Source: Patescibacteria group bacterium | GTDB taxonomy: Bacteria; Patescibacteriota; Minisyncoccia; UBA6257; 2-01-FULL-56-20 | Assembly: GCA_028865305.1 (NCBI GenBank) | Contig: JAGWKM010000010.1 | Location: 1-36,192 of the forward strand | Direction of reading: 5' to 3' | Length of the DNA stretch: 36,192 nucleotides | Shown: positions 16,407 to 31,969 of the stretch, piece by piece | Layout of the letters: each line of letters starts with the position of its first letter | Position numbering within the stretch: position 1 is the first letter of the stretch | The notes under the pieces: model-generated | The model's database searches: none | Told to the model about the DNA's origin: nothing | What the model saw: the letters and a program-made list of their open reading frames with translations, nothing else | Translations under genes and position numbers: made by a program

Positions 16407-18509
16407 TCAAAGTTCCTTCTCCTCCTCCTCTATCTTCCAGATTTCCTTGCCTATGTACCGGTCTACGTAATCGAGATCCTTCACCAACCTTGCTTCGCGT
16501 ATCTTTTCCTCCATTGACAGCTCCCCTTCGAGCTTGGCTTTTTGGACGGTCGATAATTCGAGCTCGAGATCGCGCCGCAGCACGGAAAACCCGCGCCGTA
16601 CGGATTCTTCGGCTTCGCGGATCAGGGCGCTGAACCGCGCTTTTTTCAGCCGGAACTGGCGCGTGTGATGGATGATGGCCGCAAGCAGCACGACGACAAC
16701 CGCGAAGAACAGGATCGCGAGGAGCAGATAGAGCGATTGGTAATCCAGCCGCCAGCCGCCGACCTGGAACGCGGTCGGCTGAACCGAAACATCCACCCGC
16801 GCGGACGGCGCGCTCGATTGCCCGGCGAACTTCAGCTGCGCCCACGCGACGTAGTGCCCCGGATCCAGGAGCTGCGGGAACGAATAGAACCAGTTGCCGT
16901 CAGGGCCGGTTACCGCCGCCCCGTTGAAGGTCTCCCCGGTTTCCGTGTGTTCGATCGTAATCACGACGTCCGCGTTCGGCACGTTCGCCCAGCCACCGAG
17001 ATACAGCACTTCCTTATTGGAAATGGAAGACGGCGCAAGGTTGATGATGGGTGCGTTGACCGCCAATTGGGCAGCGGGATTCTGAACCTGGGCATTGTTG
17101 CCAGTTGCCGCATGCGCCAATGGCCAATGGCCCACGGCCAATGCCCAAGAACAACCGACGGCCAAAACGACCACCGTCAACCGCTTCACCATGTTTTCGA
17201 ACTCCCGCTGTTTTTGCTTCAGTTCCTCGAGTTTCGCGAGGACCTCGGGATGCTGCGCCGCCCCTTGGATCAGGCGTTCATTCATTTCCTCATGCAGGCG
17301 CCATAACCTCCGCAAGAGCAGGATCAAAATCGCAATGACGAGCAACGCCCCGATGCCGAGAAACGGCCACCCGATCGTATACCGGTCCCCGATCCGCAGG
17401 CCGGTATTCGATATGATCTGGAAGAGCGGGGGCGCTATGACCAACCTGACGGTTTCCTGGCGATAATTACCGGCGATATCATACGCACGGACGATAACGT
17501 CATAGTTCCCGAAATTGAGCGGCTGGGAATAAGGGGAATCCGCTTCGATAAACATGGGATTGGACGCATTCGCGGCCGGTTGGTCGAGGGGCACTACCTC
17601 TACTTCGTAGTGGTCGAGGCCCGAAGCGGCATCCGTGGTGCCGAATTCGATAGTCGGCGTCTTATTATCCGTGATCCTGCCGGGCAGGATATTTATTCCG
17701 AATGCCGCCGGCGGAGCATTATCCACATTGACTGCAAAACTTGTCACGCCGCCCCAGACGCCGTTGCGGAACGCTTTGATATGGAAATAATGCACGCCAT
17801 CCGAAAGATGGCTGTAGGAAACCTGCGTCTGCATCCCGAGCGAAATGTCGTCCGGTTCGTCGGTCGGATTATCGCTCATCATATAACTGTAGCCGGCGAC
17901 TCCGGGCTCGGGGGCCCAAGCGAGCGCCACCGTCTCCGTACGGTACCACTTGTTCTGATCCGGGTTTGTCGGCGACGAGACGATCGGCCCTTCCGGCGGC
18001 GGCAGGGTCAGATGGTAAATGCCGTTCGTCACGGCTCCCAAAACGTTCGTCCCTTCGCCATTATTCAGGTAAACATTCGAATTCACGATGCTCACGGCCG
18101 CGACGCCGGTCGCGATGACGCGGAACGTGACGGTCGAAAGCAATCCGGCGTCCGTATTGATGCCTGGGTTCGGGACCGCTCCCTGGAAACTCAATGTCCC
18201 GTTCAGGTTGGAATAGGTCGGCTGGTTCATCCAGATCTGGATGACCGATTGGCCCGAACTCGGCGAAACCACCTGCAGCTTATCAGGCGGAAATGCCAGG
18301 TTGGCCTGGATGGCATTCACTGACTGGCCGCCGGTATTCACGTAAAGCGAAACGGTGAACGTGCTGCCGACGGTGAACGTGCCGGTGGCCGGCCCGAGGT
18401 AAAGGGAAGTGCCCACCGCATGGGCGCGCGAAAGGGGCACAAAAGAGGCGGAGACGCCGATGAACAGGCCCGCCAAAAGGAAAACCGCGAAAATTCTTGG
18501 AATTCGCAT
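16407..18509 (-). CDS. Two-part membrane protein with cohesin domain
   Basis: 700 residues. Signal peptide 1-31 (ending RAHA), cohesin domain about 33-170 (SLYLGPATGTFTVGSTFTVS ... VYLNNGEG), FN3/Ig-like modules to about 355, membrane helix about 375-400 and a coiled-coil tail to 445. A second unit then starts at MVKRLTVVVLA: another hydrophobic stretch (about 447-470), an Ig-like ectodomain (480-590), a helix (600-625) and a long charged coiled coil to the end. It looks like two proteins of the same plan fused in frame. The second hydrophobic stretch is encoded by heptamer repeats (17116-17150). Cohesins bind dockerins; a dockerin protein is encoded three genes upstream on the same strand. 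A TGCTATCAT box (18520-18528) precedes the ATG by 10 nt. Confidence 0.8.
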   Translation of the reverse strand: MRIPRIFAVFLLAGLFIGVSASFVPLSRAHAVGTSLYLGPATGTFTVGSTFTVSLYVNTGGQSVNAIQANLAFPPDKLQVVSPSSGQSVIQIWMNQPTYSNLNGTLSFQGAVPNPGINTDAGLLSTVTFRVIATGVAAVSIVNSNVYLNNGEGTNVLGAVTNGIYHLTLPPPEGPIVSSPTNPDQNKWYRTETVALAWAPEPGVAGYSYMMSDNPTDEPDDISLGMQTQVSYSHLSDGVHYFHIKAFRNGVWGGVTSFAVNVDNAPPAAFGINILPGRITDNKTPTIEFGTTDAASGLDHYEVEVVPLDQPAANASNPMFIEADSPYSQPLNFGNYDVIVRAYDIAGNYRQETVRLVIAPPLFQIISNTGLRIGDRYTIGWPFLGIGALLVIAILILLLRRLWRLHEEMNERLIQGAAQHPEVLAKLEELKQKQREFENMVKRLTVVVLAVGCSWALAVGHWPLAHAATGNNAQVQNPAAQLAVNAPIINLAPSSISNKEVLYLGGWANVPNADVVITIEHTETGETFNGAAVTGPDGNWFYSFPQLLDPGHYVAWAQLKFAGQSSAPSARVDVSVQPTAFQVGGWRLDYQSLYLLLAILFFAVVVVLLAAIIHHTRQFRLKKARFSALIREAEESVRRGFSVLRRDLELELSTVQKAKLEGELSMEEKIREARLVKDLDYVDRYIGKEIWKIEEEEKEL
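17116..17150. repeat. Intragenic heptamer array (GCCAATG type)
   Basis: GCCAATG, GCCAATG, GCCCACG, GCCAATG, CCCAAGA in register. On the minus strand it encodes the hydrophobic LAVGHWPLA-type segment in the middle of the 700-residue protein. Confidence 0.7.
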
Positions 18510-18519
18510 CTCTCTATTA

Positions 18520-18528
18520 ATGATAGCA
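18520..18528 (-). promoter_or_regulatory. Extended -10 box TGCTATCAT
   Basis: TGn plus TATCAT with 10 nt to the ATG at 18509, the same layout as before the M3 peptidase gene. The repeat block lies just upstream. Confidence 0.5.
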
Positions 18529-18550
18529 GATTGGAGTCCGAGTTCTAATG

Positions 18551-18933
18551 ACTAATTAATAACGAATGTGTTGTTGGGGAAATATCTAATTAATAATATC
18601 TAATTAATAATGAATGCGTAATGTCGAATGTCCGTTAGGAATTTAACCTTGGACATTCGTTATTAATTATTAATTAGATATTAGATATTATCGGGGGAAA
18701 TGTCTAATTAATAATATCTAATTAATAACGAATGAATAATGTCCGAATGTCCATCAGACATTTAACACTGGAAATTCGTTATTAATTATTAATTAGATAT
18801 TAGATATTATCGGGGCAATGTCTAATTAATAATATCTAATTAATAACGAACGCCTAATGTCCGAATGTCCATCAGACATTTCTTCCTGGACATTCGTTAT
18901 TAATTATTAATTATTAATTAGACATTAAATATT
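18551..18933. repeat. Block A: three tandem ~118-bp AT-rich hairpin units
   Basis: A partial unit (18551-18580) is followed by units 18581-18697, 18698-18815 and 18816-18933, each ending near CGGGG except the last. Each unit has a left arm of heptamers (TCTAATT, AATAATA, TCTAATT, AATAACG), a loop with CGAATGTCC ... GGACATTCG or AATGTC ... GACATT, and a right arm that is the inverted set of heptamers in a different order. The right edge supplies the TAA stop of the cohesin fusion gene. Blocks B and C at 30942-31138 and 31556-31969 are the same family. Confidence 0.9.
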
Positions 18934-20250
18934 CTTTCTTCGCCGCCAGATAATGCCAACCAAAATACCCGCCAAGACGACAATGGCCGCCGCCTCTCCA
19001 ATCTCCAGCCATAATGCCGGCCAATCGTAGATGATCCGCTCGGCCACATTGCCCGCATTGTCCTCCACCTTGAAATCCACCGCCCATGCATTCCCCGGCA
19101 GCGGCGCCGGGTTCTGCACGGTTATCCAGCCGCCCCAAAACAACAGGGTTTTATATCTCACCTCCGCGTCTTTTACGCCAGAACCGGAGTCGGAAACCAA
19201 AAAACTCAGCAATTTTTGCCCGCTGCCCGAGGGATCGTTGATTATTTTCAGGAATTGGACGGCAGGAAGGGCAGCATCCGCAGTTGCGGCTGCCGGAAGC
19301 GCATTCCCGGCTTCCGATGTCGTTGCGACATCGGCTGCCGGGGACGGCACGATTTCCACGCTTACCGCCTTTCCGCCCGGCACGACTTTCGTCGCCTGGC
19401 CGTCCGCAAGGTAAATGGCCGAATCCCCAATAGAAAATTTGGCCGTGCCGGTCGCGGCCGCTTTGGCGTTCAAGGTCAACAATAACCCGCCGGTGCCGGC
19501 AAATGGCTGGATGGAACCGCCCTCAAAACTGATGGCGCCGGCATCCGCTGTCCCCGGGGTGCCGAATGCCGGCAGCACCGCCGGATTATTCTGCCAAATG
19601 GTTATGATGGAATTCGCGTTATTCGTCTCCTCGACGGAAATCGGCCCCGTGAAATCCACGGTTGCCTCGAAAGCGTTCGCCACGCGGTCCGCATCGAGCA
19701 GGATTTTTACCGGAAAAACAGAGCCGACCGTGGCGGTCGCCGGAGCGGAAAAGTAAATCTGCGTAGCAGCGTGCGCGTAAGAAGGAACAAGGAACAGGAG
19801 ACCGGGAACAAGGGACAAGAGACAGGGAGCAAGAACTGACAGCAGCTGCCATTTTACATTTGTTTTTCTAATCAATCCGTATAACAAACGACCCGCATCT
19901 GAACGAAGTCTTTTTAATTCATTCCCTATTTCTGCAGGGATATACTGAAGACGCCCGGAAAAATCAATAAAATATTCGATTTCTGTAAGCGATCCAAATG
20001 CGATATTATAGAAATGGACTTTATCTCTTTTTGATTTCCGGGTATATCCTTCGGCAATATTTGCCGCTACCGAAACCGCGGCGCGGCGCATCTGTGAAAC
20101 CAAGCCAAATTTTTCATCTGAAGGAAAAGATTTTGTTATTTTATAAATTTGGAATGCCAATTCATCCGCTTTTTGCCAAGCAAGTAATTTTCGGTATGCC
20201 AATTCGTTATTTATAGTTCCTTGTTCCATGTCTCTTGTTCCTTGTTCCAT
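18925..20250 (-). CDS. Fusion: four-helix-bundle (23S-IVP/S23) domain plus cohesin membrane protein
   Basis: About 441 residues from ATG 20250; ATG 20229 is equally possible, and the frame is open to a TTG at 20265. Residues about 15-130 are a four-helix-bundle 23S-IVP domain (RKLLAWQKADELAFQIYK, QMRRAAVSVAANIAEGYTR, HFYNIAFGSLTEIEYFI). The frame then runs without a stop through a heptamer array translated as a signal-peptide-like stretch (VLAPCLLSLVPGLLFLVPS ending YAHA), a cohesin domain (about 163-310: TQIYFSAPATATVGSVFPVK), an Ig-like region and a C-terminal helix with an RRRK tail. IVP proteins are cytosolic and cohesins extracellular, so this looks like an insertion-derived fusion. An independent cohesin product has no obvious in-frame start codon. 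The stop (TAA) lies in repeat block A. Confidence 0.75.
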   Translation of the reverse strand: MEQGTRDMEQGTINNELAYRKLLAWQKADELAFQIYKITKSFPSDEKFGLVSQMRRAAVSVAANIAEGYTRKSKRDKVHFYNIAFGSLTEIEYFIDFSGRLQYIPAEIGNELKRLRSDAGRLLYGLIRKTNVKWQLLSVLAPCLLSLVPGLLFLVPSYAHAATQIYFSAPATATVGSVFPVKILLDADRVANAFEATVDFTGPISVEETNNANSIITIWQNNPAVLPAFGTPGTADAGAISFEGGSIQPFAGTGGLLLTLNAKAAATGTAKFSIGDSAIYLADGQATKVVPGGKAVSVEIVPSPAADVATTSEAGNALPAAATADAALPAVQFLKIINDPSGSGQKLLSFLVSDSGSGVKDAEVRYKTLLFWGGWITVQNPAPLPGNAWAVDFKVEDNAGNVAERIIYDWPALWLEIGEAAAIVVLAGILVGIIWRRRKNI

Positions 20251-20251
20251 C
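19784..20251. mobile_element. IVP cassette bounded by inverted heptamer arrays
   Basis: Left array 19784-19832: GGAACAA, GGAACAG, GAGACCG, GGAACAA, GGGACAA, GAGACAG, GGAGCAA. Right array 20217-20251, read on the other strand, gives GGAACAA, GGAACAA, GAGACAT, GGAACAA: the same heptamer order, inverted. Between them sits the four-helix-bundle ORF. The cassette starts right after the dockerin stop codon and ends in the cohesin signal peptide. Long intervening sequences of 23S rRNA have this same plan (inverted ends plus S23/IVP ORF). Confidence 0.65.
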
Positions 20252-20252
20252 C

Positions 20253-21026
20253 CTACCCCGTCCAATGGTACATCATGATCGAAATGTCCGGGAAATCGAC
20301 TGTCCCGTTATGGTCCAGATCATAGCGCGCGACGGACGGTCCTGAACGCCCGTAGTAATAGAGAAAAATCGAGAGATCTACAAGATTCACTTTGCCGTCG
20401 CAGTTGAAATCACCGATCTTTGCCTGGTTGTCGCAACGTGTCGATTGCGGCGGCACCGGAGGCGTGGAGGTCATGACCGGAACCGAACTCGAGCCGTAAT
20501 ATCCCGTGCCGCCGCCCCCGCCTCCACCGCCACCGCCGCCTGGACCGCCGCCCGCGGCGCACGCCACACTCGCCCGCCAGTCCGTTTGGACCGCGCAATT
20601 AGAACAATCGAAATTGATTTCGCCGAGCGTCGAGCTTCCGGAACTGCCAAGGCCCAAAACGACCGCTTCACCCGTGAATTTGCCGGAGCCGTTGATCGAA
20701 ACGCCTCCGAAATTGATGTAACCCGTATTTTCTCCCCAGGCATAGCCGCCAAGCTGTCCGCTGCAGTTATTCGTCACGCCCGACCCGGCCGGCGAAAGGT
20801 TTATCCAGCCGTAGTTTTCGCTCCAGACATATCCGGCGAGCGTCGATTTCGTCACCTGCACGTTCCCGTTTGTCGCGCCGAAATTCACCCACCCGAGATA
20901 ATCGCCCCAGGCATACTTGCTTGTCGAGTCAATCGTGCCGTCGGAGCCCGAGGCAAAGGCGAAGAAGGGAATGAGGATGAGGGTATAAAGTATTATGTAT
21001 AAAGTATTATGTATACCTTTTTTCAT
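20253..21026 (-). CDS. Secreted dockerin-domain protein
   Basis: 257 residues. The signal peptide (MKKGIHNTLYIILYTLILIP, cleavage near FAFA|SG) is encoded almost wholly by a heptamer array. The body has three or four repeats of the Y-x-W-G-x-x-x-G-W-I/V-N-F-G type (YAWGDYLGWVNFG, YVWSENYGWINLS, YAWGENTGYINFG). After a poly-Gly linker a dockerin type I pair follows (about 203-257): DFNCDGKVNLVDLSIFLYYYG and DLDHNGTVDFPDISIMMYHW, with the Ca-binding D-x-N/D-x-D/N-G loops intact. Dockerins dock to cohesins, and two cohesin proteins are encoded immediately downstream. It could be held on the cell surface by them. Confidence 0.85.
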   Translation of the reverse strand: MKKGIHNTLYIILYTLILIPFFAFASGSDGTIDSTSKYAWGDYLGWVNFGATNGNVQVTKSTLAGYVWSENYGWINLSPAGSGVTNNCSGQLGGYAWGENTGYINFGGVSINGSGKFTGEAVVLGLGSSGSSTLGEINFDCSNCAVQTDWRASVACAAGGGPGGGGGGGGGGGTGYYGSSSVPVMTSTPPVPPQSTRCDNQAKIGDFNCDGKVNLVDLSIFLYYYGRSGPSVARYDLDHNGTVDFPDISIMMYHWTG

Positions 21027-21044
21027 ACCTTATACATTATACTT
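20982..21044. repeat. Heptamer array over the dockerin gene start
   Basis: GGTATAA, AGTATTA, TGTATAA, AGTATTA, TGTATAC, CTTTTTT, CATACCT, TATACAT, TATACTT. The ATG of the dockerin gene (21026) lies inside. The array upstream of it provides a TATAAT 9 nt before the ATG on the minus strand, so both promoter and signal peptide may come from the repeat. Confidence 0.75.
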
Positions 21045-21071
21045 CATGATGCCCCATACCATCAGGGCTGC

Positions 21072-22469
21072 TCAGTTGCTGATTGACCCCTGCGGCGTTA
21101 TGGTAAGCGTGGACGGAGATAAGAAATTCACGAGGGCCGCGGAATAGACGGTGGATTGATAATTAAAATTCTGGTCGCGGCCGCCGACAAAAAGAATATA
21201 ACCATTGTAGCTCGCCCCCGAAGCTATATAATTTTGCCTTGGCAATGGCTTGCCGACCACCCAATCCCCCAACGTACCATCATTATTTATTTTGGCATAA
21301 TCAACCTCCTGGGTAATTGACCAATTATTGAAACCACCCATGGAATAAAGATAACCCTGGTTCGCCGCAAGCGCCTGGTCAAATGCGCTCGAAGGCAAAG
21401 AGGCCGTTTGCGTCCAGGCCCCAATGCTGCCGTCCGCATTCATCCGCGCAAACCACACCGATGAGGTAGCCCCTAAGCCGCCGTATCCTCCGACGATATA
21501 AAGATAACTGCCGGCAATCACGGCCGATCCGTAGCCCGTCAGCGGAGACGATGTCGTATTCCAATTTCCCAATGTTCCGTCGGTCTTGATTTTCGCGTAG
21601 AAGATTTGATTTAAGGGAATAGAATATGCACCAACGCCTCCGATGGAATATACGTAACCGTTCGCGGCAACGCCGGCATTATTGGTTACCGTGGTCGGCA
21701 ATGGTAACGTGGCCGTCCACGACCCCAGAGACCCATCATTGTTAATTTCGGCAAAATTCACCGTAGAAGTATAGGCATGCCATGTATTTGAGTTATATCC
21801 GCCCATGGAATAAAGATAACCGCCGTAGGCCGCCGCGCCTTGCACATAAACCGTAGCCGGCAATGAAGCAGCCGGCGTCCAGTTGCCCAGGGTCCCATCG
21901 GCATTAATATGGGCGTAATACACGGAATTGTACGGACCATTGCCATATCCGCCTACTATATAGATATAATTGCCATACACGACCGTCGAACCGGAATCGG
22001 GCTGCGGCAAGGATTGCTGCTGGTTCCAGGATGCGATAGAACCGTTGCCATTGCACGTTTTCAGGGTGACGAGATCGGATTGTCCCGAAACCTGGCCGCT
22101 GATCGGGCTGAATATCACATCAGCCGCAGAACCGAAATCCGGCTTGGTAAAACAGATGCCAAATGGCAATTGATAGGTGCCGGCAAGGAGAGAAGAAGAG
22201 CTGAATCCGACAGTCCCCGAAACGGCAAACAAGGTTACGCTTGGTGCGGCCGGGTTGGTATTGTCGAAATGCACGCCCCAAGCCAAACCCTGATCGCCGG
22301 AAACCGAACGTGATTGAGCTTGCCGAAGAAGCGCCCCGACCTGTATGGCAGAACTATTAAGCGTGGCCTCTTTCTGTGATCCGTAAAGGTTCAGGTAGGC
22401 CACAACGCCGATCACGATCATGATCGCGACCACAATCAGCATCTCGGCCATAGTGAAGCCCTTTCTCAT
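21072..22469 (-). CDS. Type IV pseudopilin with inserted six-repeat kelch-like propeller
   Basis: 465 residues. Prepilin leader MRKGFTMAEMLIVVAIMIVIG (cleavage after the Gly, +5 Glu present) and a GspH-like pilin domain to about 137 (VIFSPISGQVSGQSDLVTL). Then six repeats, each with V/I-GG-Y and an N-x-D-G-x-L/I-G-x-W turn (about 145-445). At the end the single strand STLTITPQGSI looks like the last pilin strand. The propeller therefore seems inserted in a pilin loop. It would be displayed on a pilus-like fibre and bind a ligand, perhaps a sugar or surface. ATG follows the TAG of the upstream ligase gene without a gap, so translation is probably coupled. Confidence 0.85.
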   Translation of the reverse strand: MRKGFTMAEMLIVVAIMIVIGVVAYLNLYGSQKEATLNSSAIQVGALLRQAQSRSVSGDQGLAWGVHFDNTNPAAPSVTLFAVSGTVGFSSSSLLAGTYQLPFGICFTKPDFGSAADVIFSPISGQVSGQSDLVTLKTCNGNGSIASWNQQQSLPQPDSGSTVVYGNYIYIVGGYGNGPYNSVYYAHINADGTLGNWTPAASLPATVYVQGAAAYGGYLYSMGGYNSNTWHAYTSTVNFAEINNDGSLGSWTATLPLPTTVTNNAGVAANGYVYSIGGVGAYSIPLNQIFYAKIKTDGTLGNWNTTSSPLTGYGSAVIAGSYLYIVGGYGGLGATSSVWFARMNADGSIGAWTQTASLPSSAFDQALAANQGYLYSMGGFNNWSITQEVDYAKINNDGTLGDWVVGKPLPRQNYIASGASYNGYILFVGGRDQNFNYQSTVYSAALVNFLSPSTLTITPQGSISN

Positions 22470-24938
22470 CTACCGTCCGGTTGTTGAACTTGCCTCTGGT
22501 ACTGGTACGTTCGCGGCGTTCTGCGGTGCGGGCGCCGGCGGCGAAATGCCGGAAAGCGCGGGCTTATTGGCCTGAAGGTTATTCAGGATCTGCTGGACCT
22601 CCGCGTTGTCGGGATTCAGCTGCTTGATGGCCGTGAATTGGGCGATGGCGTCGGATTTGTTCCCCTGCTGGTCGTCGATCAACCCGAGGAAATAGCGCGC
22701 GTTCGAATAGTTGTTATCGAGTGAAACGGCGCGGGCGAATTCCTGCCGGGCCTCTGCGGTCTGGCTGTTTTGGTAATAGAGCAGTCCGAGTTGGAACGCC
22801 AGGCCGGCATCGAGCGGGTTTGCCTGTTCGATCTGCTGCACGCGCGCAATGGCCTTATCCACGCTCCCCTCTTGGATATAAAGCTGCGCAAGAAGGAATT
22901 GCGGCGTAGCGTAATCCGGCTTGAGGTTGATGGAATTCTGGAGCTGCGTTTCAGCATCGCTCAGTTTTGCCTGGGCGGCATCTTTCTGGTTCAGCTGCTG
23001 CAGTCTCGCTGCCGAGGCCGCGTCCACCCGCGCGATCGCGATCGGGAGGTCGGGATTATAAGGATCGATTTTCTCGGCGCTTTGGTATGCGGCCACGGCA
23101 AGAGCGTCCGCGCCGTTCGCAATCGGAATCAGGCCCTGATAAACGCTGCCGAGCGCCTCCCAGTTGAAGACATTATTCGGATCAAGCTTTGTCGCGTTTT
23201 GCGCCGCCGTGAGCGCCGCGCTGATGGCGGCTTCCGTCTGCGCATTCAGGGTGCCGCTCGCCTGCTGGAAAAGTTGCTGCGCCTGGGCGAATGCCACCTG
23301 GCTGCCGACGCGCCAGCTGTCATCCACTGAGTTATCAAGCGAAACGGACGTTTGGATACTCGCCGCGGCAGCCGGAAGGTTTCCGGCATTCAAGGAACTC
23401 ACCGCATCAGCGTAAGCCGAGGATGCCGAATATTTCTCGATTATGCGGTATGCGGCCACCAAGCTTGCTACGCCGAGAAGCAATGCGGCAATGAAGACCG
23501 TAAAGAGCAGCTTGCGACCCAATTTTTCAAAAGAAACCGCCCGGCGCGAGTCGGTTTGCAGAATAAGCAGCGCGAAGCCGACAAAGAGCGCCAGCATGAG
23601 CGTGAGAAAACCGGGGTAGAAAAGAAGCATGGCTGCGAGGAAAATGAGCGGCATGACGAGCGGTTTTATCCGGCCTGCTTCATCTTGCCGGCTTACGAAC
23701 CCTATAAGCCGGGCGAATCCAAAGAGGACGAAGAGGAACGCCAGCACGCCGAGCACGCCCGCCGTCGCGAGCAAGGTCAAAAAGAAATCATATCCCTGCG
23801 AGAATGGCACCGTCCAGAAATTGGTCGCGTTCAGGCCGATAGTCCGGAACCGCGTAAAGACTTCGCTGAAGGTTGACGGCCCATTGCCCAAGAAAAGCCG
23901 CACGCCATGGATAGCGTCCAGGGCGACGCCCCAGGTGGCCGATAAATTCGGCCGCACTTCCGTCACCGTTGCCGCACCGGTCGGCAGCCGCGAGCCGATG
24001 ATCGCAAGCAGAAGCGCGATGGCCGCGAGCACGAGCGGCAGCCGGTAATTGCCGTGCTCCATGAACCGCATTGCCGCGACAACAAGGAAAGCGACCAGGA
24101 GCGCGATCCACAAGAACTGGAAATTAACGACAAGAAGGCCGATGGTGAAGAGAATGGCCAATAGCCAGTGGCCAATAGCCAATGGTTTTCCCTTTTGAAG
24201 ACCGTCTTCGCCCCGAAGACGGTCTTCTGGCCCCTTCTCCACAATCCCAATCAGCACCGCCGCCATGAATACGCCCCAGCCGAAGGTCGTACCCAAGGTG
24301 TTGAATGCGGTCGATTTCGTAAACGCCCAAGGCAAGAGATACCAGCCGTACATCTGCAAAATGCCGTAGACGGTCACGAGCCCGAGCGACCAGAGGAATA
24401 ATTTCCCGATCTTCGGCAGGTCTTCGTTGGTAAAGAAATAAAACGAAAAGAAAAACGCACCGGCGTACAGGAGCGCCGCGAGGAATGAATCCGGCTGCAC
24501 GAGCTTGCCATATAAACTCAATAAGGATGAAGTTGAAAATAAAGTCCCGAGCCCGATCACGGCCGCGAAAACGCCGACCGCGAGCGCGAGGAGCGACCGC
24601 GGATATTCCAAGGCCCTTTTTTCAACCACGCAAACGAGAAAACTCACGAAAGCCGCAAGGACCAGGATGGAAACCGCGATGATCTTTCCCGACTCCACCG
24701 GAAATTGCGTGAAGGGCAGGAAAAAGAGCGGCACGAGAAACACGAGTGCAAACATCGCGAACCGGCCGATTTTGAGGAAAGTCGAGTAGGTCGAAGATGT
24801 CGAAGAAGAACCCATGGAACTTTCGCCGCTTCCCTGTTCCCCGTTCCCTGTTCCCTGTTCCTGGTCCGGCAGGGGTATTTCCATCGCCCACTCCTCATTT
24901 TCGCCTGGCACACGCAAACGCCGTGAATTGTTTTCCAT
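22470..24938 (-). CDS. O-antigen-ligase-like polytopic protein with C-terminal TPRs
   Basis: 822 residues from ATG 24938. Polar N-terminus (about 1-55), then about 12 membrane helices to about 495 with the Wzy/WaaL-type periplasmic loop (GVRLFLGNGPSTFSEVFTRFRTIG). TPR units follow at about 535-790 (DPNNVFNWEALGSVYQGL, PDYATPQFLLAQLYIQEG, NNYSNARYFLGLIDDQQGN) and a Pro/Ala tail. Such proteins transfer or polymerise glycans on the outer face of the membrane; in CPR they may act on surface glycoproteins or pilins, which fits the downstream pilin gene. Two heptamer arrays and one palindrome lie in frame inside the gene. The start is set by TATAAT 6 nt before ATG 24938, with a TTGCCT -35. Confidence 0.85.
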   Translation of the reverse strand: MENNSRRLRVPGENEEWAMEIPLPDQEQGTGNGEQGSGESSMGSSSTSSTYSTFLKIGRFAMFALVFLVPLFFLPFTQFPVESGKIIAVSILVLAAFVSFLVCVVEKRALEYPRSLLALAVGVFAAVIGLGTLFSTSSLLSLYGKLVQPDSFLAALLYAGAFFFSFYFFTNEDLPKIGKLFLWSLGLVTVYGILQMYGWYLLPWAFTKSTAFNTLGTTFGWGVFMAAVLIGIVEKGPEDRLRGEDGLQKGKPLAIGHWLLAILFTIGLLVVNFQFLWIALLVAFLVVAAMRFMEHGNYRLPLVLAAIALLLAIIGSRLPTGAATVTEVRPNLSATWGVALDAIHGVRLFLGNGPSTFSEVFTRFRTIGLNATNFWTVPFSQGYDFFLTLLATAGVLGVLAFLFVLFGFARLIGFVSRQDEAGRIKPLVMPLIFLAAMLLFYPGFLTLMLALFVGFALLILQTDSRRAVSFEKLGRKLLFTVFIAALLLGVASLVAAYRIIEKYSASSAYADAVSSLNAGNLPAAAASIQTSVSLDNSVDDSWRVGSQVAFAQAQQLFQQASGTLNAQTEAAISAALTAAQNATKLDPNNVFNWEALGSVYQGLIPIANGADALAVAAYQSAEKIDPYNPDLPIAIARVDAASAARLQQLNQKDAAQAKLSDAETQLQNSINLKPDYATPQFLLAQLYIQEGSVDKAIARVQQIEQANPLDAGLAFQLGLLYYQNSQTAEARQEFARAVSLDNNYSNARYFLGLIDDQQGNKSDAIAQFTAIKQLNPDNAEVQQILNNLQANKPALSGISPPAPAPQNAANVPVPEASSTTGR
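24156..24183. repeat. Intragenic heptamer array (GGCCAAT type)
   Basis: GGCCAAT, AGCCAGT, GGCCAAT, AGCCAAT. On the minus strand it encodes LAIGHWLLAI, the start of a membrane helix in the ligase-like protein. Confidence 0.65.
24197..24227. repeat. Perfect 14-bp palindrome inside the ligase gene
   Basis: GAAGACCGTCTTCG (24197-24210), a 3-nt loop, then the exact reverse complement (24214-24227). Each arm is itself nearly palindromic. It is in frame (EDRLRGEDGLQK), lies 13 nt from the heptamer array and looks like an inserted mini-element in a cytoplasmic loop. Confidence 0.7.
24831..24865. repeat. Intragenic heptamer array (TCCCTGT type)
   Basis: TCCCTGT, TCCCCGT, TCCCTGT, TCCCTGT, TCCTGGT, in frame near the 5' end of the ligase-like gene; translated as the polar QEQGTGNGEQGS linker. 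Confidence 0.65.
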
Positions 24939-24944
24939 ATCCAA

Positions 24945-25806: not shown

Positions 25807-25855
25807 GTATTAGGTATTAGGTATACCTTATACTTTATACCTTATACATCATACA
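25807..25855. repeat. Heptamer array (GTATTAG/TTATACC type)
   Basis: GTATTAG x2, GTATACC, TTATACT, TTATACC, TTATACA, TCATACA: a small palindromic version of the array at 28756-28909, centred on GTATAC. It lies between the HEPN gene start and the stop of the DUF2341 gene, so both sides of that gene carry the same heptamer family. Confidence 0.85.
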
Positions 25856-28740: not shown

Positions 28741-28755
28741 CTACAGATCGTATTG

Positions 28756-28909
28756 GGTATTAGGTGTTAGGTGTTAGGTGTTAGGTGTTAGGTGTTAGGT
28801 GTTAGGTGTTAGGTATAAGGTATAAGGTATAAAGTATAATGTATACCTTATACCTTATACCTTATACCTTATACCTTATACTTTATACTTTATACTTTAT
28901 ACATTATAC
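28756..28909. repeat. 22-unit heptamer array with palindromic centre
   Basis: 154 nt in unbroken 7-bp register: GGTATTA, GGTGTTA x7, GGTATAA x3, AGTATAA, TGTATAC, CTTATAC x5, TTTATAC x3, ATTATAC. The centre GTATAC is self-complementary and the right half is the inverted set of the left GGTATAA part, so it can form a long hairpin. It fills the gap between the start of the DUF2341 gene and the stop of the Gly-rich gene. Confidence 0.95.
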
Positions 28910-28919
28910 TTTTTCCCCC

Positions 28920-30941: not shown

Positions 30942-31138
30942 AATTAAATTTCTAATGTCTAATTAATAATTAATAAGAAAATTTCTAATTAATAATATCT
31001 AATTAATAACGAATGTGTTGTTGGGGAAATTTCTAATTAATAATTAATAATTAATAACGAATGGATAATGTCCGAATGTCCGTTGGAAATTTAACCTTGG
31101 ACATTCGTTATTAATTATTAATTAGACATTATTAATTA
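30942..31138. repeat. Block B: AT-rich hairpin repeat 3' of the IVP gene
   Basis: Same family as block A (TCTAATT/AATAACG heptamers, CGAATGTCC ... GGACATTCG loop). It fills the whole gap between the Gly-rich gene start and the IVP gene stop; the TAA stop of the IVP gene is part of the repeat. Its right arm (GTTATTAATTATTAATTAG) is inverted relative to the left arm of block C. Confidence 0.9.
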
Positions 31139-31497
31139 GCACTTTTCTCTTTAGTATTCTTTATTATTGTAACAAATATGAGATTTAATTCGTGCGCTTC
31201 CTTCCAAAACATACGGGCTTCTGGCGCAATACGAGGGGCAGCCTTTGCTATCATCCGCAACCAATGTTTTGATTCTTTGGCTTCTTTATTGCAGATACCC
31301 ATTTTATGAATGAAATCTTTCCGTGATTCTGCGCAATCAGCCTCGCATAAATTAGCACCTACGCTAGTTGCCGACCGAATTAATTGATCAATCAAAGGGG
31401 TGGTAATTATTGTCTTTGGGATATCTTCCGCAAATCCAATAACATCCTCTCCAAATCTGGCAGCTCGTTCTTCCAAATCGAATTTTTTCTTTTCCAT
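31132..31497 (-). CDS. Four-helix-bundle protein, 23S rRNA-IVP/S23 family
   Basis: 121 residues. Family motifs: KKKFDLEERAARFGEDVIGF, LIDQLIRSATSVGANLCEAD, ESRKDFIHKMGICNKEAKES and KHWLRMI. Related proteins are encoded in 23S rRNA intervening sequences and include Avd of diversity-generating retroelements; they bind nucleic acid as ring-shaped oligomers. No rRNA or reverse transcriptase is in the window. It is flanked on both sides by inverted AT-rich heptamer blocks (B and C). A GAGG Shine-Dalgarno lies 8 nt before the ATG. It belongs to a different subfamily (ANLCEAD) from the fused copy at 20250 (ANIAEGY). Confidence 0.9.
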   Translation of the reverse strand: MEKKKFDLEERAARFGEDVIGFAEDIPKTIITTPLIDQLIRSATSVGANLCEADCAESRKDFIHKMGICNKEAKESKHWLRMIAKAAPRIAPEARMFWKEAHELNLIFVTIIKNTKEKSAN

Positions 31498-31555
31498 ACT
31501 CCCATCCTCATGGAATTAAATGCATTGTCAAAGTTTATTTAATGATTTTTTAATA

Positions 31556-31969
31556 TTAACGCCATTGGACATTGTTGGGGAAATTTCTAATTAATAATTA
31601 ATAATTAATAACGAATGGATTGTTGGGGAAATGTCTAATTAATAATGTCTAATTAATAACGAACGCCTAATGCTCGAAAGTCCATCGGACATTTAACCTT
31701 GGATATTCGTTATTAATTATTAATTAGATATTAGATATTATCGGGGAAATGTCTAATTAATAATATCTAATTAATAACGAATGGATAATGTCCGAATGTC
31801 CGTTGGAAATTTAACCTTGGATATTCGTTATTAATTATTAATTAGATATTAGGCATTTTCCGGAAAATATCTAATTAATAACGAATGCGTAATGCTCGAA
31901 TGTCCATCAGACATTTCCCATTGGATATTCGTTATTAATTATTAATTATTAATTAGATATTAAATATTC
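31556..31969. repeat. Block C: three tandem AT-rich hairpin units plus a partial one
   Basis: Partial unit near 31579-31617, then units of about 105-120 bp ending at about 31746, 31863 and 31968. Same arms and loops as block A, with variants (AATGCTCGAA). The right edge GAATATTTAATATC abuts the stop of the giant surface-protein gene. Confidence 0.9.

Follow-up and report, generated by a model that had tools for sequence, protein, structure and literature searches.

Our data indicate that the seven-base repeats of this DNA are very probably the arms of an IVS-like insertion element that carries an S23 gene, together with shorter derivatives of the element that have no gene. A complete copy has a 5' heptamer arm, an S23 ORF (PF05635/TIGR02436) and a 3' arm whose sequence is the reverse complement of the 5' one, and the two arms pair into a long stem. 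Slippage would alter the copy number of the arms, and proteins would tolerate an array at places where a short insert in frame does no harm. The 5' arm, which is rich in purines and poor in C, gives charged peptides in the sense direction and its complement, the 3' arm, hydrophobic ones; a 3' arm that lies over the beginning of a gene for a secreted protein or a pilin may become the leader of that gene. The window, which is the whole stretch of 36,192 nucleotides that was analysed, is an entire contig of a draft genome of 1.99 Mb in 388 contigs. Gene content and relatives suggest that the genome belongs to the CPR; the features of the window are collected in Table 1.

An S23 element at the junction of the dockerin and cohesin genes

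The period of seven is specific: self-similarity of the window gave 18 runs at lag 7 and none at lags 4, 5, 8, 10, 11 and 13. The first-pass annotation had described four heptamer arrays that are translated into signal peptides or membrane segments. All four are present, within a few bases, at 17097-17148, 19779-19824 (GGAACAA), 20983-21014 (GTATAAA) and 24153-24185, and their translation in the ORFs quoted there yields a hydrophobic stretch at every site: LLSVLAPCLLSLVPGLLFLVPSYAHA in the S23-cohesin ORF, MKKGIHNTLYIILYTLILIPFFAFA in the dockerin protein, WALAVGHWPLAHAATGN at 17116 and LAIGHWLLAI at 24153. The seven-residue peptide period that was read from the seven-base repeat holds as well, by arithmetic necessity (21 nt). 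Two coding arrays in or near the same range had been passed over, 24830-24861 (EQGTGNGEQG) and 20216-20248 (EQGTRDMEQG), and both are hydrophilic. The protein at 22470-24944 had been named a ligase, a name that Pfam does not bear out, as it gives TPR matches only.

The ORF previously described as a fused cohesin does contain a cohesin gene, but its actual structure is an S23 ORF (PF05635) that reads into this gene. The arrays at 19779-19840 and 20216-20248 are reverse complements of each other and bracket the S23 gene, and RNA folding pairs these arms. In the syntenic relatives L081, L083, L084, L085, L086 and L091 the dockerin and cohesin genes are directly adjacent and there is no S23 gene between them. 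Therefore, the S23 element of the window is an insertion between the two genes, and this insertion has fused the S23 frame with the cohesin frame. The genome G021 has an S23 element at the same dockerin/cohesin junction, with other heptamers. Elsewhere in the window the hairpins of about 118 bp with TAATTAA-type heptamers form two similar clusters, 18576-18927 and 30946-31968, the latter of which surrounds an S23 gene.

Table 1. Heptamer arrays of the window and the genes associated with them
Feature	Position	Strand	Basis or remark
Heptamer array (AATGGCC type)	17097..17148	-	second hydrophobic segment of cohesin-domain protein 16407-18509
Three intergenic hairpin repeats of ~118 bp made of TAATTAA-type heptamers (solo, with stops)	18576..18927	.	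lag-7 scan, folding
Cohesin gene continuing from S23 ORF; own start likely near 3' arm	18925..19840	-	tblastn orthologues in L081-L087, L090, L091
IVS-like S23 element: 5' heptamer arm, S23 ORF, 3' heptamer arm	19779..20252	-	inverted arms; paired fold; syntenic relatives without S23
3' heptamer arm (TTGTTCC reading)	19779..19840	-	cohesin signal-peptide hydrophobic core; KD mean +2.09
S23 / 23S_rRNA_IVP four-helix-bundle domain	19879..20193	-	PF05635 E 1e-35 and 1.3e-34; TIGR02436 E 1.9e-31
5' heptamer arm (GGAACAA reading)	20216..20248	-	read as EQGTRDMEQG at S23 ORF start
Dockerin protein (PF00404 slightly below cut-off)	20253..21026	-	
Solo heptamer hairpin GTATAAA / TTTATAC, without S23, across dockerin gene start	20983..21044	-	encodes part of dockerin signal peptide
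Heptamer array (AATGGCC/AATAGCC)	24153..24185	-	membrane-helix start, TPR membrane protein 22470-24944
Heptamer array (TTCCCTG; coding reading GGGAACA)	24830..24861	-	hydrophilic EQGTGNGEQG near N-terminus of TPR membrane protein 22470-24944
Short intergenic heptamer hairpin (GTATTAG / TATACCT)	25807..25855	.	lag-7 scan
Long intergenic heptamer hairpin (GGTGTTA / GGTATAA, inverted TATACCT)	28750..28912	.	lag-7 scan, folding
TAATTAA-type hairpin repeats flanking second S23 gene on both sides	30946..31968	.	lag-7 scan
Second S23 gene of window	31132..31497	-	PF05635 E 1e-14; TIGR02436 E 5e-20

S23 genes have inverted heptamer arms across phyla and occupied and empty sites on plasmids

At 37 loci of the source genome and its relatives, lag-7 repeats cover 20.4% of the DNA within 100 bp of S23 genes and 0.9% at control genes. 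A broader sample of 80 S23 loci, drawn from Bacteroidota, Nitrospirota, Elusimicrobiota, Omnitrophota, Planctomycetota, Cyanobacteria, Clostridia and other groups, gave a coverage of 12.5-19.9% within 100 bp and of about 1% beyond 200 bp. An array lies within 250 bp of the gene in 50 of these 80 loci and on both sides in 32, while about 38% of the broad loci have no array above the score threshold used. All these values were obtained on draft genomes with a crude gene caller and an array score threshold, and related loci among them are not independent. The two flanks of a single S23 gene are reverse-complementary, with a median score of 42 compared to 18 for mismatched pairs: 65 of 112 flank pairs exceed the 99th percentile of the mismatched pairs, and only 10 of 112 do so in direct orientation. 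The purine share is 63% on average in the 5' arm and 39% in the 3' arm. The heptamer itself is specific to the locus (63 distinct ones among 71 S23 loci). We rejected a strong specificity between protein and heptamer, since the correlation of the two is weak (rho -0.195) and common descent or base composition could account for it.

Structured RNAs of the source genome harbor the element as well. One S23 element resides inside the 16S rRNA gene near its 5' end (L005, G000:C236), and an apparent RNase P RNA (L006, G000:C328), for which the match is weak (27 bits, E 1.2e-5, below the gathering score in an Rfam search by E-value), has several heptamer stems, one of them enclosing a truncated S23 gene. 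Rfam at gathering scores detected neither RNase P nor 16S in the larger pieces; the E-value search of L005 and L006 found both. Downstream of the 16S element we also observe a borderline group I intron match and more heptamer arrays. A weak lag-8 signal is present near S23 genes too, and some arms may be octamers (e.g. at L340). A phage origin was rejected, because no S23 match was found among 50,697 phage records.

Cyanobacterial plasmids provide both states of the same site. The element is found in plasmids of Trichormus variabilis and Scytonema and is absent from the approximately 98% identical plasmids of Nostoc linckia, N. carneum and Tolypothrix: the occupied site reads AAAAAGTAAT, element, GTAATTAAC and the empty one AAAAAGTAATTAAC, with GTAAT as a 5-bp duplication. 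Four further independent sites have empty counterparts as well, with inserts of about 400-510 bp (five sites in all). A uniform target-site duplication was sought at the five sites and was not found: one site has the clean 5-bp duplication (GTAAT), one has a possible duplication of about 10 bp and three have lost 11-42 bp. The genes on either side of most empty sites are separated by only a few bases, so it is gene junctions that the element enters. The length of the arms changes as well, and in both cases known to us the arm is non-coding: the 5' arms of T. variabilis and Scytonema are unequal in length by 14 nt, and a difference of 7 nt is seen in the 3' arm when N. edaphicum is compared with Nostoc C052. 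The elements of about 400-500 bp contain the S23 ORF alone, with no catalytic mobility protein or transposase within, and the role of S23 and the chemistry of the insertion are inferred.

S23 genes also occur between cas genes on cyanobacterial plasmids (L340, from Picosynechococcus PCC 7003, L342 and L345), a location that has been noted before (PMC3936711). The plasmid of PCC 7002 (L363) has an empty cas10/cmr3 site, so the S23 gene of PCC 7003 looks like a passenger there.

Arrays inside proteins and the weighing of explanations

The array survey of the source genome covered 358 kb of contig pieces, chosen partly for contigs that carry S23 genes, and gave 117 arrays compared to 0-4 at the control lags. 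The solo arrays of the source genome repeat the heptamers of its own S23 arms far more often than they do those of arms from other genomes (p = 2e-6, uncorrected for phylogeny), and S23-positive relatives have 34 arrays in 426 kb whereas S23-negative ones have 9 in 400 kb (p = 0.002, likewise uncorrected). Of these nine arrays, three (in G042 and G057) resemble genuine heptamer stems, and arrays can thus be present in a genome that has no detectable S23 gene.

The way in which such arrays are read follows from their length. Because 3 does not divide 7, the same seven residues are encoded in all frames when a single heptamer is repeated: GGAACAA yields GTRNKEQ, and TTGTTCC, its complement, yields LFLVPCS; thus a stop-free heptamer is open in any frame. 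Among the 49 arrays that overlap ORFs, the coding strand is free of stops in 45 and the opposite strand likewise in 45, and among the intergenic arrays 12 of 68 are stop-free on both strands. Hydropathy tracks the purine content of the strand (rho -0.84): the mean is -1.85 for the 32 purine-rich arrays and +0.91 for the 17 pyrimidine-rich ones. When a 3' arm extends into a gene start, it is the pyrimidine-rich sense that is translated, and the peptide therefore tends to be hydrophobic. The first-pass annotation had suggested that the repeats are recruited as, or tolerated only in, hydrophobic or linker regions. The restriction to hydrophobic regions is not supported, as 31 of the 49 coding arrays of the source genome are hydrophilic and 14 are clearly hydrophobic, and many of the coding arrays lie inside cytosolic enzymes.

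The coding arrays, 49 of 117, fall below the coding fraction of 73% (p = 4e-12, with a crude gene caller), a shortage that would follow if insertions often do harm. Arrays in the interior of proteins were found in UvrA, UvrC, BipA, LepA, CCA transferase, ThrRS, MetRS, ATP synthase, RelA/SpoT, DnaG, MltG, MiaA and others. One would argue that the arrays are not translated at all and are coding only in the longest ORF that a gene caller can draw. Such an artefact is likely for some N-terminal cases, such as rpS3 (L236) and RRF (L222), where the Pfam domain lies well 3' of the called start. However, the interior arrays of LepA, MiaA, UvrA, BipA and others have conserved domain sequence in the same frame on both sides, and as a general explanation the artefact is hardly credible. 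In MiaA a complete hairpin of about 22 aa is read as ENGETRNEKG-LPMLHAPFSILH; it is missing in the PDB homologue 2qgn and in relatives with a bare loop. By an eye count this loop has a heptamer array in about 8 of 24 aligned sequences, each array being different, and is bare in a dozen. LepA likewise shows recurrent, differing heptamer arrays at one loop. Two further proteins attract attention: a single ORF with glucose-6-phosphate dehydrogenase and 6-phosphogluconate dehydrogenase domains has a heptamer array within (L180:16277-18694), and a UvrC-like protein has four lag-7 arrays (L182:14448-15785).

Could the arrays be adaptive, that is, does selection recruit them as adjustable signal peptides and membrane segments in the manner of contingency loci? 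The leader of the cohesin gene is coded by heptamers in the window and in G021, G003 and G028, by four unrelated heptamers, and is ordinary in the other relatives; the array codons form the hydrophobic core ahead of a signal-peptidase-like site (SYAHA|ATQ in the window cohesin and YSAQA|SS in G021, by eye). Arms of S23 elements also overlap prepilin-like leaders (L053, L061, L063, L068) and signal peptides (L104, probably L118), again by eye. The earlier claim that arrays become signal peptides is thus supported at least for the cohesin core, but the restriction to hydrophobic regions that went with it is not. Recruitment as a general rule we rejected, because the coding arrays are mostly hydrophilic, many of them sit in cytosolic enzymes, and S23-element arms running into genes showed no enrichment of hydrophobic N-termini (crude Fisher test, p = 0.71). 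The scarcity of arrays in coding DNA points in the same direction, and most relatives manage without arrays. Orthologues of the same protein sequence that have no seven-base periodicity in the DNA had been named as the refuting observation. At 17116 ten of ten orthologues keep the hydrophobic segment and none has the 7-bp period; the signal peptides of the dockerin relatives are ordinary and without the period; the membrane helix at 24153 has roughly ordinary counterparts, in a coarse alignment of proteins 27-35% identical. Therefore the arrays occupy segments that were already permissive and did not create the need for them, and the relatives at 17116 and at the dockerin gene are evidence against segments made by the arrays there. 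Selective recruitment is not supported here, and we hold the adaptive explanation to be rather unlikely. We read the arrays as a recurrent tolerated insertion that sometimes provides leader peptides.

Another possibility is that replication slippage alone is at work, so that the heptamers are microsatellites which expand in place and the S23 gene is incidental. The copy number does vary in 7-nt steps, and heptanucleotides are reported, in a work cited in PMC4679880, to outnumber all other long simple repeats in most of the bacterial genomes studied. However, slippage does not yield distant reverse-complement arrays, bracket one gene family or insert about 400-500 bp at a near-identical site. 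As the sole cause it was rejected on the inverted arms and the empty sites, and it is very unlikely as the explanation of the arrays, while it is a likely means by which the arms of the S23 element grow and shrink.

Relation to known systems and implications

The closest likeness is to the IVS of 23S rRNA with an S23p ORF known from Leptospira and Coxiella, in which an ORF of the S23 family lies within a long stem of terminal complementary sequences and the insertion is in helices of structured RNA. In Coxiella two to three tandem heptamers (GACAGAT), variable between strains, precede the S23p ORF, and the stem-loop RNA is excised by RNase III (PMC4990558). The element of the window has the S23-family ORF and the terminal complementary stem of an IVS, but its site is between two protein genes and not in an rRNA gene. 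More generally, the present element differs from an IVS in that it is also intergenic and occurs in a gene-less form inside protein genes, and in that it has arrays of heptamers at either end, the heptamer being a different one in nearly all loci, and is found in many phyla. Terminal inverted repeats, by which MITEs and transposons are recognized, are present as well.

Rickettsia palindromic elements (RPEs) are similarly palindromic inserts placed in frame in many protein genes (PMC10969869, PMC6649704), and the MiaA hairpin is such an in-frame palindromic insert. RPE families, however, have a conserved sequence of about 150 bp, whereas here the heptamer period and the inverted arms are conserved and the sequence varies by locus, as the 63 distinct heptamers at 71 S23 loci illustrate; in addition, the present element has an associated protein, S23. 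Cyanobacterial STRRs (heptanucleotide repeats) resemble it in being degenerate heptamers, located in RNA genes, whose pairing forms a hairpin: such a hairpin is known in P6b of the tRNA-Leu intron (PMC3488679), and the title of Vioque 1997, as cited in PMC4748335, places STRRs in RNase P RNA. STRR-like heptamers, e.g. GGGAACA and GGAGTCA, flank S23 genes in Nostocales plasmids. The difference is the direct link to S23 seen here, and we found no report that ties STRRs to S23 genes. Papers that join S23 genes with heptamers in general were not found either, save the Coxiella remark, in a search of mainly open-access journal literature. The definitions of IVS, RPE and STRR each cover the element only in part.

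Two other protein families deserve comparison. Avd, the accessory protein of diversity-generating retroelements, shares the four-helix-bundle fold class and gives weak matches, which remain under the cut-offs (NF033474 30.7 bits versus 80; PF22296 31.6 versus 40); the present element has no reverse transcriptase inside. Elements with a GxxExxY protein (TIGR04256) are likewise in-frame inserts with inverted repeat arms, at the same LepA loop; they differ in the protein family and in their arms, which are of CGCGGAT type with a spacing of about 9-10 nt. In the G-domain loop of LepA at L255 (G021), L263 (G006) and L264 (G020) these inserts are about 490-570 nt long with inverted CGCGGAT-type arms; that of L255 is a GxxExxY protein (TIGR04256, E 2e-33) and those of L263 and L264 look alike. 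The LepA insert thus looks like a second, analogous kind of element. The LepA proteins of G038, G050 and G039 apparently have inserts at this loop too.

It is quite possible, although we put it forward tentatively, that S23 and its locus-specific heptamer arms constitute a pan-bacterial class of mobile elements without a recognised transposase or nuclease. Elements of such a class would renew the arm heptamer in each lineage or at each site. They would insert at junctions between genes, into helices of RNA and, in frame, into loops of enzymes, and time and again the pyrimidine-rich arm would be donated to serve as the leader of a secreted protein or a prepilin. The class would unite cyanobacterial STRRs, rRNA IVSs and the S23 genes of cas loci. 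A warning comes with this for cas loci, where S23 genes may be passengers, as the empty cas10/cmr3 site of Picosynechococcus PCC 7002 suggests. The empty sites make mobility directly testable. If the proposal is right, it would explain where the heptamer repeats come from, which in many bacterial genomes are more frequent than any other long simple repeat, it would provide a context for the S23 or 'four helix bundle' genes, and it would reveal one way in which proteins of streamlined genomes change in frame.
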